Below are positions 43,090 through 48,825 of a DNA stretch of 64,000 bases, in pieces. The DNA comes from Bacteroides sp. (GTDB taxonomy: Bacteria; Bacteroidota; Bacteroidia; Bacteroidales; Bacteroidaceae): assembly GCA_015060735.1 (NCBI GenBank), contig SUXX01000004.1, positions 51,398 to 115,397 of the forward strand, given 5' to 3'. Position 1 is the first letter of the stretch. Every line of letters begins with the position of its first letter. The notes beneath the pieces were generated by a model. It did no database searches. It had not been told where the DNA came from and saw only the letters and a program-made list of their open reading frames with translations. The translations under genes and the position numbers were made by a program.

Positions 43090-45450
43090 TTAGTTGTTAC
43101 CAACGTAAGCATTAATGGTTACACCATCAGCAATATGAACATCGCTCTGACCGTTGTAATCTTCATATACTACATTGGAATCATAGGTACCTCCATTGAA
43201 GTAAAGTTCGCCCAAATAGGTTCCAGCCTCTTGATTCCAAATATAAGTAGTAGCACCGTTATTTGCATGAAACTCACCGTCATTAACAATCAATGTTGCA
43301 GTTCCTCCCTGCTGAGGATAATTGCGGAACAAGTTGATAGCATCACCACTAACAGAGTAGTCACCTCCATTGATGGTCAACTTAGTTGCACTAGATGCAT
43401 TTGTCGTACGGTTATCAACAATGGCAGCAATAATCCAAGTATGATCGTTTCTGACGTTACTAATATTGTACGCACCACCATTTAACATCAACTCACCAGA
43501 GTTCAAGAAAATTGCCAAAGACCGATTATCCGCTGTTATTTCAGTAACAGCATTGATTTCACCGTCACCGAAAACAGTCAAAGAAGAAGTACTGGGGATG
43601 GTGAACATGGCATAATGATCAGAGCCTACGTAAGAAGCAGTCAATTTGTGGCCGTTCAAGCTAAGAACAACATCCGCATCGGCAGGAATGGTGATAGTGG
43701 CGTCACCCAATTCGATATCACTGACCAAAACGATACTCTTTCCTCCGTTGATAGCCGTTGTCAAATCATTCACGCTAGAAACTTCGGTTGCAAAATCATC
43801 ACTAATAACCACATTATTGAATGTACCGCCCATAACATTAACTACACCGGCACCTTCAGGAGCAGAAGCAGAAGGCTTCTGATTCCAGATAGCACCTTTA
43901 TCATTATCGCGTCCATTGAACGTACCACCGTAAATATTGATTGTAGCAACGGTTGCATAGTTGTTATGACCTGCCGCATTCGCAAAATTACGGAAGAGAT
44001 TACGATGGAAGGTATATGTACCTCCATTGATATTCAATGTAACATTTGCCACATTACTATTGTTATCCACAAACGTAGGAATCAATGCATCCGGATATTC
44101 CAATGCTGTCATAATCCAGTTACCTCCATTCAGATTGACGGTACCACCTATATTATTGATAAATGCTGCCAAGCCTGTTGCTGTATGCGTAACCACATTC
44201 ACATTGCCTTGACCTTGAATAGTCAGCGTTCCATTGTTTTGAACTTGGAAGATAGCCGTGTTACGGGTTACATCAGGAATATTGGCGATGAGTTCGTAAC
44301 CATTCAAGTCGATGGTTACATTCTTTCCGTCGAGGACAAAGAGGTATGGACTAGCGATAGTTGCGTCAAGTGCCGTTTCACCTACCAATTTGATGGTTTC
44401 ACCATCCTGAACCGCATCCATTGCCTTGGCAAAAGAAGTGTAAGCCACACCGTTAATTGTTGCATAAGGCATCTTCAAATTGTTATCGTCCTCGTAAACA
44501 GGATCAATGATAATATTGAATGTTATATCACCTGTCAACAGTTTACCAAGAATATTGGTACGCCAGTTACGTTGTACAGGAACATTGTTCAAGCCTTGAT
44601 TGAATCTGATTTCGTTACCTGCTGTCGGTTTGAATACAAAGCTTACATTGTCTAAGGTTGTCTTTGCATAACCTGTCGTTGCATCAGCCGGAAGGATATA
44701 GCTCATAGAAAGCCATTTGTAACTTTCCTTGTTACCATCCCCATCAGTATCCACCTTCAAAGTTTCGCTAGGAATAGCATTAAGAGCGTAAGTTATTTCC
44801 GTAGTTGCATTACCTACCGTTCCATCCAACAGGTTCAAGGAGGTTGCCACATTGCTGATTACAACTGAAGAGTTTGCAATCTGAATACCAGATGATACAG
44901 CAGCATTCCAATCTTCTTCCGTAACCCCCACGTTGATTTGAGCAAAAGGACGTTTCAGTTCCACATCTATGGAAGTAGAACCAGTTACTGTAAATTCAAC
45001 AGTTTTGAAAAAAGCATCACGAGTTTCATCATTGTTGATGTCCGAAGTAGAACCCGTCGTACCATCTGTATAGTCGATAGAGACAGACATGTCATCTGTA
45101 TCTACGGTATAGGCATCACATTCTGAATCCTGTGCCCAGAAAGCAACTTTGTAAGTCTGTCCCTTAGCCAAGATGAGACTTTCGGTTGTCGGGAAATTAA
45201 CATTATCCTTACTAACAACTGCAATGTCGGAAAGGCGATTACCATCCTTGTCAAATACAGCATAAACTAATCTATCGGCACCCGTACCATCACTGATACC
45301 ACGGCTTCCAATCACACTTTCCAAGTCAAGCGAGAACTTTACCTGAGCTTCATTACCTGCCTGAGTATTTTCCTGTACGTCATCAGAGCAAGAGGTTGCA
45401 AACAACATACCTGCAGTCGCAAAAATTCCAAAAATAATTTTCTTGTCCAT
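43090..45450 (-). CDS. Surface lipoprotein: fimbrillin-like N-terminus plus two duplicated beta-helix-like domains
   Basis: Lipobox FATSCSDD; ~330-aa fimbrillin-like region; repeated DLNGYEL / SLNGHKL, LTIQGQGNVN / LTVFGDGEIN, NGGTY blocks. Confidence 0.75.
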   Translation of the reverse strand: MDKKIIFGIFATAGMLFATSCSDDVQENTQAGNEAQVKFSLDLESVIGSRGISDGTGADRLVYAVFDKDGNRLSDIAVVSKDNVNFPTTESLILAKGQTYKVAFWAQDSECDAYTVDTDDMSVSIDYTDGTTGSTSDINNDETRDAFFKTVEFTVTGSTSIDVELKRPFAQINVGVTEEDWNAAVSSGIQIANSSVVISNVATSLNLLDGTVGNATTEITYALNAIPSETLKVDTDGDGNKESYKWLSMSYILPADATTGYAKTTLDNVSFVFKPTAGNEIRFNQGLNNVPVQRNWRTNILGKLLTGDITFNIIIDPVYEDDNNLKMPYATINGVAYTSFAKAMDAVQDGETIKLVGETALDATIASPYLFVLDGKNVTIDLNGYELIANIPDVTRNTAIFQVQNNGTLTIQGQGNVNVVTHTATGLAAFINNIGGTVNLNGGNWIMTALEYPDALIPTFVDNNSNVANVTLNINGGTYTFHRNLFRNFANAAGHNNYATVATINIYGGTFNGRDNDKGAIWNQKPSASAPEGAGVVNVMGGTFNNVVISDDFATEVSSVNDLTTAINGGKSIVLVSDIELGDATITIPADADVVLSLNGHKLTASYVGSDHYAMFTIPSTSSLTVFGDGEINAVTEITADNRSLAIFLNSGELMLNGGAYNISNVRNDHTWIIAAIVDNRTTNASSATKLTINGGDYSVSGDAINLFRNYPQQGGTATLIVNDGEFHANNGATTYIWNQEAGTYLGELYFNGGTYDSNVVYEDYNGQSDVHIADGVTINAYVGNN

Positions 45451-45488
45451 TAGTAATCATTTTAGTAAAACAAATTTATTTATAAAAG

Positions 45489-46514
45489 CTATTCAAACTT
45501 TATGTTGTGGTCTCCATTAAAACTGGGGTTGATGGTTACACCTCCCGTTGCTTCCGATATTAGGAACGTACCCGTCAATAAGGTATGCCGACTACGTTTG
45601 ACCGGCACATCCACCGGCTTAGTTAAGGAGACTTGTGTACCTTTCTTATCATAAAGGGCCATCTGCATAGTTACAGTTGTCTCCTTGTCGTTAGCAAGAA
45701 CATAATCAAATCCCATTGAAGCCTCCTTGTCGTTAAGTTTCTTCAAAGTTGATTCAAACATCACACCCGTAGAAGAGTCAACCGGCTTGTCGGTATACAT
45801 GCTATAAGTGTCTGCCATAAAGCCCACATAATGAAATGCCACCTTGTAATCCTCCAAGTTCACGGTTCTGCTTTCCCTAGAATCCACACGAACCGATTCC
45901 TTTTTAATGAATTCCTCCACATCATTGGTAACGAATTCAATTTTGGCAAGGGGGCGTTGCATCGTTATATTAACCGTATCAAGCTGATGGTTCCTGACAT
46001 CTGCAACCAGCGACAGACGGTTCGTACCCCGAAAGGCATCCCGATAGTTTGTATTTCCTTGATGGTCGCCTTGCAACTTGATTTCGTTGAAGTTGGCTGC
46101 ATCGTGGAAGGGTGTATCTCCAACTGTTTCCATCAAGTCCGACCATACCATCACGTTATAATCCCCTTCCGGAAGACTAAGCGTCACCTCGTGCTCATAA
46201 CCCTCGGAAATATCCTTGGTGAATACAAACTCCTGTGCGTAAATGGATGCGACACGCTGCATCTCTGATACGGGATAGGCACGTATAACATAGCGGATCT
46301 TACCTTGTCCCAAACGGTTGTCGTACATTTCACCCAATCCTTGTTCCCTAACTTCCAAACCGTTATACAGATGTTTCCATTCGGTCATATCGGTTTCGTA
46401 AACAAGCCGCAGATGGAACGGCACACGGTTGGGCAAGTCCGGCCATTCATGCACATCACACGAAACAAGAAGCATCATCGGTGTCCATATGATAAAGCAT
46501 AATATCCTTTTCAT
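45489..46514 (-). CDS. FimB/Mfa2-family fimbrial anchor/tip lipoprotein
   Basis: MMLLVSCDVHEWPD; DYNVMVWSDLME; RPLAKIEFVTND. Confidence 0.78.
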   Translation of the reverse strand: MKRILCFIIWTPMMLLVSCDVHEWPDLPNRVPFHLRLVYETDMTEWKHLYNGLEVREQGLGEMYDNRLGQGKIRYVIRAYPVSEMQRVASIYAQEFVFTKDISEGYEHEVTLSLPEGDYNVMVWSDLMETVGDTPFHDAANFNEIKLQGDHQGNTNYRDAFRGTNRLSLVADVRNHQLDTVNITMQRPLAKIEFVTNDVEEFIKKESVRVDSRESRTVNLEDYKVAFHYVGFMADTYSMYTDKPVDSSTGVMFESTLKKLNDKEASMGFDYVLANDKETTVTMQMALYDKKGTQVSLTKPVDVPVKRSRHTLLTGTFLISEATGGVTINPSFNGDHNIKFE

Positions 46515-47779
46515 CGCTTGCCTCCTCTCTTCTTCAGATCAAACGAATACGAGAACGATACTGCCGCTTGGTCAATGCCCCAATAGACTTTCTTGATGCT
46601 CTCTATCAACGCACCGTCTTTGGTTCGTGGAGTGTTGTAGAACTTGTCGTAATGCAACGGATAGACACCTGCACCAAGTATGAACTCCACCCACCAACGA
46701 TTGTTCTTGCTGATGGGTAGCCGATAACCAACACTCATACCACCACCAATAGCCGGAGTCCTGCGATAATGGTCCTGATATCGGTATTCTCCATCCATAG
46801 CAAAATTATAATATGCCAAACCAAAGTGTGCTCCTGCAAAAAAGCCCTCATTCGCCTCTGACCACCAGTAACGCAACTCAGGCTGAATGGCAAACGTACG
46901 AAACTTGATGGTTGTCTTGAAATAGTCCCAAGCCGAATAATAAACAGGCAAGGTAAACGACCAGTGTTTGGCTAAGTCAACTTCCACGGCTACATTCGCT
47001 ATAACCAGCCCCAATCCAAGGACATTGGTCTTCAGATGTAGTTTTCGAGACCAATCCTCTGCTTCGAGCATTTCAACTTCTACATAAGTGACCGTATCAG
47101 GGACAATTGCCGGTGCTTCCATTATCGGCTCTACAACCAGCGTATCAGAAAAAGCAACAGATTCCTGAACAGGAGGCAAATCCGTCTTAAAAGCTACAAT
47201 CACCGCACAAGCATTCCGCATCCTTCCAAAGAACTGATTATATATTTGTTTCCATATTTTTCCGTTATCCAACGCCTTTAACTTAACAATACGGTTGTCG
47301 ATTTGCGTATTCGGCTGCTGATAATCCACCAATCGGGCCTCTTCTTCCAAGATAGCCATCACTTCATCCTTGCCAGGCAGGTTGGAATCTTCAATTTGAG
47401 ACTTCAGATATTCCCATGGAATATAGCTATCGTCACGCGTAATCAAGCTATCTGGAATATACACTTCCTTGCGAACAAACTTTTCAAGAGCCTCGAGCCG
47501 TCCCCTTGCCAACTTGCGATTAAGCTGATAGCTACCTTCAGGAGAAGCTGCACCACAAAAAGATACTTCGACGATGCGAGTTGTGCTATCCTGACGGAGA
47601 GTCTGAAGAAACTCCACCAGTTCCTGCATGCGAGCAGCATTATCCGAAAAGGAAGGGTCTATGACCATGCTGTTCAAACGGAAGTCCACACATATCTCCG
47701 AGCGTCTTTCTTGTGCATATCCAATACCGACTCCAAACAAAAAGAGAATCAGTGTTATTAAAGTATCCTTCATACACAT
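46511..47779 (-). CDS. DUF3575/OmpA-like outer membrane protein of a fimbrial locus
   Basis: VSFCGAASPEGSYQLNRKLARGRLEAL; C-term beta-barrel; overlaps downstream ORF start. Confidence 0.78.
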   Translation of the reverse strand: MCMKDTLITLILFLFGVGIGYAQERRSEICVDFRLNSMVIDPSFSDNAARMQELVEFLQTLRQDSTTRIVEVSFCGAASPEGSYQLNRKLARGRLEALEKFVRKEVYIPDSLITRDDSYIPWEYLKSQIEDSNLPGKDEVMAILEEEARLVDYQQPNTQIDNRIVKLKALDNGKIWKQIYNQFFGRMRNACAVIVAFKTDLPPVQESVAFSDTLVVEPIMEAPAIVPDTVTYVEVEMLEAEDWSRKLHLKTNVLGLGLVIANVAVEVDLAKHWSFTLPVYYSAWDYFKTTIKFRTFAIQPELRYWWSEANEGFFAGAHFGLAYYNFAMDGEYRYQDHYRRTPAIGGGMSVGYRLPISKNNRWWVEFILGAGVYPLHYDKFYNTPRTKDGALIESIKKVYWGIDQAAVSFSYSFDLKKRGGKR

Positions 47780-48050: not shown

Positions 48051-48138
48051 CGATTCACTGGGGTGAGTCGGTCGTTTCACTAGAGTGAATCGGTAGATTG
48101 ACTTAAGTGAGTCAGTCGATTCACTGGAGTGAATCGAT
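48051..48138. promoter_or_regulatory. Four exact 22-bp tandem palindromic repeats (consensus CGATTCACTnnAGTGAATCGGT)
   Basis: Units 48051-48072, 48073-48094, 48095-48116, 48117-48138; immediately upstream of the -33 region and TATCTTTG (48170-48177). Confidence 0.88.
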
Positions 48139-48201
48139 TTAAGCACTTGCATCTTTACACAAGTTTTCCTATCTTTGTACATTCACTAAAACCTAAGAAT
48201 C

Positions 48202-48825
48202 ATGCCTATCGAATACGAGTTTTACCGCAACCCCAACTCACAAGGAACCAACAAGAAGCGTTATCATGCCCGAGTCATATCCGGCAATCGGATTTCGTCC
48301 GACCGGCTGGCCAAGGAAATCCAGCAGGAAAGTTCGCTGACCATTGCCGATGTGAAGGCCGTACTCATCACACTGGGTGACAAACTGGCCAAACACCTAG
48401 GCGAAGGAAGCAAGGTGCATCTGGAAGGAATCGGCTATTTCCAAGTGAACTTGCAATGTAAGGAAGAAGTTCGTACCCCGCATGCCGTCCGATCGGAAAA
48501 CGTGGAGTTCAAATCGGTTTCCTATCGGGCAGACAATGAACTGAAAAAGCATTTGCGACAACAAAAAATACTACGCTCGAAAAACAAACCACATTCTATG
48601 CCGATGACGGAGGAAGAAGTCGACCGGATACTAACGGAACATTTTGCAACGCACGAAACCCTCACCCGCCGGCAATTCCAATTTCATGGTATGCAGGTAA
48701 AATCGACCGCCCACCGCATCCTGAAAAAGCTGGTGGAAGATGGCAAACTGAAGAATGTAGCCACTCGACAAAATCCGGTTTACATGCCCGACAACGGCCA
48801 TTACTCTCCTGTGGCAGAAAAATAA
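48202..48825 (+). CDS. HU-like DNA-binding protein with C-terminal winged-helix-like region
   Basis: YEFYRNPNSQGTNKKRYHARVI; LAKHLGEGSKVHLEGIGYFQV. Confidence 0.85.
   Translation: MPIEYEFYRNPNSQGTNKKRYHARVISGNRISSDRLAKEIQQESSLTIADVKAVLITLGDKLAKHLGEGSKVHLEGIGYFQVNLQCKEEVRTPHAVRSENVEFKSVSYRADNELKKHLRQQKILRSKNKPHSMPMTEEEVDRILTEHFATHETLTRRQFQFHGMQVKSTAHRILKKLVEDGKLKNVATRQNPVYMPDNGHYSPVAEK

Follow-up and report, generated by a model that had tools for sequence, protein, structure and literature searches.

The four tandem dyads at 48051-48138 of the window, the stretch of 64,000 nucleotides of Bacteroides sp. DNA analysed here, most probably form an operator array through which the adjacent, downstream-encoded protein would regulate its own gene (we put the probability at roughly 0.78). 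The protein is a member of the HU-HIG family with a C-terminal winged helix (HU-HIG-wHTH). An array in front of such a gene is a rule of the family, with the same layout and a different sequence in most cases in the Bacteroidales. The features of the region are the following.

43090-47779, minus strand: operon encoding a DUF3575 protein and two DUF6562 proteins, one of which also matches the Mfa2 fimbrial anchor family.
48051-48138, no strand assigned: four-dyad tandem array (sequence, repeat finder and detector score).
48147-48177, plus strand: predicted Bacteroidales-type promoter, with TTG at 48147 and TATCTTTG at 48170 (sequence, and position of the -7 box across loci).
48182-48187, plus strand: possible extra half-site TTCACT, weak, between the promoter and the start codon (sequence).
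48202-48825, plus strand: HU-HIG protein of 207 amino acids (Pfam PF18291, TIGR01201, AlphaFold2 model and residue-motif association).

Both the sequence and a repeat finder placed the starts of four head-to-tail 22-bp units, as quoted in an earlier sequence-only reading, at 48051, 48073, 48095 and 48117 (spacing 22, 22, 22), each unit consisting of a dyad with the consensus GATTCACTnnAGTGAATC and a 4-bp linker. That reading had called them four exact palindromes, which is right in number and length and too strong as to exactness, because units 1-3 are imperfect; unit 4 is indeed a perfect 9-bp inverted repeat, with 2 bp between its arms. We scored the 400 bp upstream of a gene for four tandem dyads with a period of 20-24, and used as background 158 unrelated upstream regions from the same loci, after an earlier background of 295 regions was dropped because antisense and divergent open reading frames shared the HU-HIG arrays. 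The window array scored 62.5, compared to a best score of 37.2 among 40 dinucleotide-preserving shuffles of this 400-bp region (z ~20) and a highest score of 48.2 in the background. Single dyads occurred in the window at chance level (8 matches against 7.6 expected, with three mismatches or fewer), and we therefore counted only tandem arrays; the significance of the site rests in its tandem phasing and not in single dyads.

The product of the gene downstream had been described as an HU-like fold followed by a winged helix, and this description was borne out. It matched PF18291 with an E value of 3e-33 (114.8 bits against a curated cut-off of 26.2, covering profile positions 1-123 of 125), and NCBIfam TIGR01201 (HU_rel) as well, making it a clear member of the HU-HIG family, which Pfam names after HU fused to a wHTH, Ig or glycine-rich motif. 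An AlphaFold2 model built from 21 relatives (mean pLDDT 89) predicted an HU domain at residues ~21-125 and, as a C-terminal extension, a winged helix at ~137-196, with a recognition helix at 167-179 that carries Arg172. Foldseek matched the first domain to HU and IHF, and also found the solved structure 4fmr (BVU_2165), a 'putative bacterial DNA binding protein'. The protein thus shares with the nucleoid proteins HU and IHF the fold of residues ~21-125, and differs from them in the added winged helix, which holds a residue that tracks the sequence of the site, and in having tandem dyads as sites instead of single bent ones. In the literature accessible without subscription that we searched, we found no DNA site, operator or regulon for HU-HIG proteins; the paralogue-specific array is what the present analysis adds to the family as known.

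HU-HIG genes were gathered from the window's genus and from other families of the order. The profile matched in 61 of the 61 genomes searched in the genus, and these counts are upper bounds because it also catches ordinary HU. Both wHTH and glycine-rich forms were met in the survey. An array scoring above the 99th percentile of the 158 unrelated regions was found upstream of 106 of 134 HU-HIG-wHTH genes, and 91 of the 134 exceeded the background maximum; HU-HIG genes that lack the winged helix passed the 99th percentile in 5 of 37 cases, all outside the window's genus. About one-fifth of the wHTH genes had no array that the four-dyad detector could find. In the 93 clearest arrays the period was 22 in 77 and 21 in 13, and the array mostly started 105-170 bp before the ATG. 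While this layout was constant across HU-HIG-wHTH genes, the dyad differed between paralogues, as in GATTCACTnnAGTGAATC of the window and in GTTACACGTACGTGTAAC, TAACCACnnnnGTGGTTA, TGGAATGTACATTCCA, TTTGGAGTTAACTCCA and TATGATTATACAATCATA, and within the window's own genome three paralogues (L032, L033 and L034) bear different motifs.

Short HU-HIG genes with upstream repeats were also seen in other families of the order (L165, L169 and L171). The repeat is clearest at L169, TGATGCGCAT, and the three motifs are similar though the genomes belong to different families.

The position of the array with respect to the promoter was consistent with an operator. The -7 box TATCTTTG lies at 48170, where it had been reported, and the ATG at 48202, so that phased dyads stand at the promoter of the putative regulator's own gene. 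A TAnnTTTG box was present within 70 bp of the array in 62 of the 93 loci (chance, 2.8% per window searched). Placement varied between clades: in the window's clade the array precedes the predicted promoter, and in 7 loci the -7 box starts exactly 30 bp beyond it; in most other clades (49 of the 93 loci) the box comes just before the array, which would there follow the start site and lie in the leader. An additional TTCACT half-site proposed near 48182 is present in the window and is not clearly conserved, since the 88% identical paralogue reads TCCACT at this position.

If the adjacent protein reads the array, site and protein should change together. Similarity between motifs grew with similarity between proteins. 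After overall identity was regressed out, residue 172 tracked motif similarity with r of 0.42, compared to a maximum of 0.28 in 300 permutations, where the null was the highest value over all alignment columns; residue 169, also in the recognition helix, came next at 0.22, at the edge of the permutation null. A CAC/GTG core was present in the arrays of 44 of 56 genes encoding Arg172 and of 1 of 43 genes with other residues. After thinning of the proteins to <50% identity the association had p = 2e-5, and at <40% identity it weakened to p = 0.011; on a midpoint-rooted tree 12 changes were needed for Arg172 and 10 for the core. Partial correlations with motif similarity were 0.25 for the HU domain and 0.14 for the winged helix; as the HU domain follows the motif at least as well, it is the single-residue result that carries the argument for the winged helix. 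The site sequence thus co-varies with a predicted DNA-reading residue of the adjacent protein, and the pattern is probably what an arginine-guanine contact made by the winged helix would give.

These observations lend good support, at the level of sequence, to the earlier proposal of a cooperative operator array that is probably autoregulatory, since genes of this type share the layout throughout the genus and in other families of the order, and since changes in the motif go along with changes in the recognition helix. In the mechanism that we envisage, one HU-HIG-wHTH dimer would bind each 22-bp dyad, and each of its two winged helices would use its recognition helix to read a half-site (TTCAC/GTGAA), with Arg172 probably on a guanine of GTG. 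Four such dimers, spaced by about two helical turns, would then occupy one face of the DNA and control transcription of the protein's own gene. The effect would most likely be repression, because the array abuts the promoter and a position on either side of the promoter suits repression. We infer physical binding, cooperativity, a stoichiometry of one dimer to each dyad and the direction of regulation from these sequence patterns. Autoregulatory operator arrays and plasmid iterons consist of phased copies of a ~20-bp site close to the gene whose product binds them, and the window array resembles them in having several such sites adjoining the gene of its presumed binder. Unlike plasmid iterons, it is chromosomal, no replication or partition genes were seen, and the site is private to each paralogue.

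The same protein probably acts at matching arrays elsewhere. A search of the draft genome for further arrays, which the sequence-only reading had suggested as a check, returned two in addition to that of the window (two mismatches or fewer), and two of these three arrays stand before HU-HIG genes. One of the additional arrays (on contig C74; L031:6110-7607) precedes the 88% identical paralogue and lies between it and a VapE-like gene. The other (four units on contig C60; L059:610-700) lies beside an rRNA operon. It is downstream of a response-regulator (DUF5932) operon and ~550 bp upstream of a 16S rRNA gene, which we identified by visual inspection of its conserved 5' end. Seemingly the same response-regulator operon is flanked on its 3' side by an array of a different motif in two other genomes (8 units in G063, L243; L276 in G011). 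Two sister genomes, G031 and G070, contain four further arrays of the window-clade motif, 108-155 bp upstream of VapE-like genes (PF05272/DUF3874; L251, L252, L254 and L255, three of them clear Pfam matches and one below the cut-off). To judge from the position of these arrays, the HU-HIG-wHTH protein may have VapE-like genes as a shared target.

A wider dispersal was seen in G011 and G063, two complete genomes of the genus, where the motif of another HU-HIG-wHTH protein occurs in ~15 intergenic arrays per genome. These form part of a repeated element of ~200 bp (L237-L250 in G063, L273-L276 in G011) whose leader and tail are shared between copies and flank a core of 2-8 21-bp units; several copies lie between convergent genes. 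We considered whether the dispersed arrays of G063 mark a promoter regulon and rejected the idea, as a manual count on naive open reading frame calls, which is not a formal test, placed none of the 14 non-self arrays between divergent genes and ~6 between convergent ones. In G002 and G016, which have a related gene with its own array, the search turned up no further array of this motif (G002 has one extra single dyad), and a dispersed copy that was tested by its flanks was absent. The gene-proximal array is thus the constant feature, and dispersal a lineage-specific addition.

A dispersed repeat of this kind is known from Porphyromonas gingivalis. BrickBuilt is a 23-nt minisatellite or MITE (Klein et al., 2015; PMC4596501), described in that report as a mobile element with promoter activity and with no protein partner. 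By our own reading of the consensus given there, its unit is the dyad ATGAGA-N11-TCTCAT. The shortest copy, of 84 nt, separates PGN_0871 from PGN_0872; PGN_0872 carries the annotation of a PF00216 DNA-binding protein and is transcribed away from the repeat (PMC4596501, Table 1). We did not find BrickBuilt among 393 order-wide genomes; a search of the family then gave two carriers, and in both an HU-HIG gene of 152 amino acids that lacks a winged helix lies behind a BrickBuilt array. The one protein scanned scored 80.8 bits against the Pfam HU-HIG profile. A matching neighbourhood and a rough map position point to PGN_0872 as this gene. Judged by sequence, then, the array that precedes an HU-HIG gene in Porphyromonas is BrickBuilt, a link that we found neither in the sections of PMC4596501 consulted nor, for these genes, in the other literature searched.

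Several more HU-HIG genes without a winged helix, in the Porphyromonas genomes G456 and G458 (L313-L334), have their own, mutually different arrays of 22-23 bp, with dyads such as GAAACGTCTAGACGTTTT, CTAAACTATATAGTTTGG and CGATTTATATATAAATCG. Many of these additional HU-HIG proteins end in a glycine-rich tail. The canonical HU gene in the two BrickBuilt-carrying genomes had no array. A rule that an array requires a winged helix holds in the window's genus and fails in Porphyromonas. The winged helix is therefore not the sole reader in the family, and in Porphyromonas the reading of the site must fall to the HU-HIG domain itself or to a partner. The arrays of the genus resemble BrickBuilt in their tandem dyads (23 bp in BrickBuilt), in dispersed intergenic copies with a leader and tail and in the presence of one copy before an HU-HIG gene. 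They differ in that the sequence of the window array is unrelated and the BrickBuilt-adjacent protein lacks a winged helix.

The dispersal in G063 and G011, with a leader and tail common to the copies, and the description of BrickBuilt as a MITE could indicate that the window array is itself a copy of a MITE- or BIME-like intergenic repeat that lies near the gene by chance and has no regulatory role there. We consider this unlikely, as most wHTH genes of the genus have a gene-proximal array at a fixed distance and against the promoter, the gene in G002 and G016 retains its array where no others were found, and the motif follows the recognition helix. The draft genome also holds three arrays of the window motif and not the many dispersed copies of a BrickBuilt-type repeat.

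Whether an autoregulatory array would in addition govern the divergent fimbrial operon, as had been suggested, is quite doubtful. The divergent start at 47779 is 272 bp from the array. However, neither the DUF3575 gene nor the ABC-F neighbour was found when we inspected 13 loci, orthologous or related and including that of the paralogue, in most cases within flanks of 1.5-4 kb, and control of the fimbrial genes is unsupported because the DUF3575 neighbour is not conserved.

It is also very unlikely that the array serves some other regulator as its operator, or is a centromere- or iteron-like site for another protein, with the HU-HIG gene merely a target. A spacing of about two helical turns resembles that of iterons and centromere repeats, and the adjacent protein in Porphyromonas has no winged helix. 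Against this, the class of motif changes together with the recognition helix of the neighbouring protein, paralogues within one genome each have a motif of their own, and no ATPase or GTPase partner of the partition type adjoins the HU-HIG gene in the window. An action of the array as RNA, through 5'-leader hairpins controlling elongation, stability or translation, would suit the 49 loci with the array in the leader and the stem-loops predicted for BrickBuilt repeats in PMC4596501, but is highly improbable, as the window's clade has its array upstream of the promoter and arms of the same unit were no more complementary than arms from different units (0.6616 against 0.6622 +- 0.0042, and likewise in dispersed arrays), and the lack of compensatory changes between the arms of a unit indicates that duplex DNA, and not hairpin RNA, is read.

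We return to the array as an autoregulatory operator and to what this would mean for the family. HU-HIG proteins are numerous in the Bacteroidales, and the constant layout with a paralogue-specific sequence newly provides them with candidate sites: dozens of these proteins now have a predicted binding site, and for each of them autoregulation and a specificity residue are predicted as well; all of these predictions can be tested directly. A candidate protein partner is also gained for BrickBuilt in P. gingivalis, and gut bacteria supply a set of seemingly orthogonal regulator-operator pairs. Tentatively, and as a possibility that we hold with less than even confidence, the family may consist of nucleoid-type proteins with sequence specificity, each of which has at its own promoter an array, private to it, of about four dyads of 21-23 bp; in some lineages the array of one such protein would have been copied across the chromosome in small intergenic repeats (BrickBuilt, and the ~200-bp element of G011 and G063) to serve as genome-wide docking sites. 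If this is true, such docking arrays would give the paralogue concerned a chromosome-organising or silencing role, with the sites and their reader diverging together.
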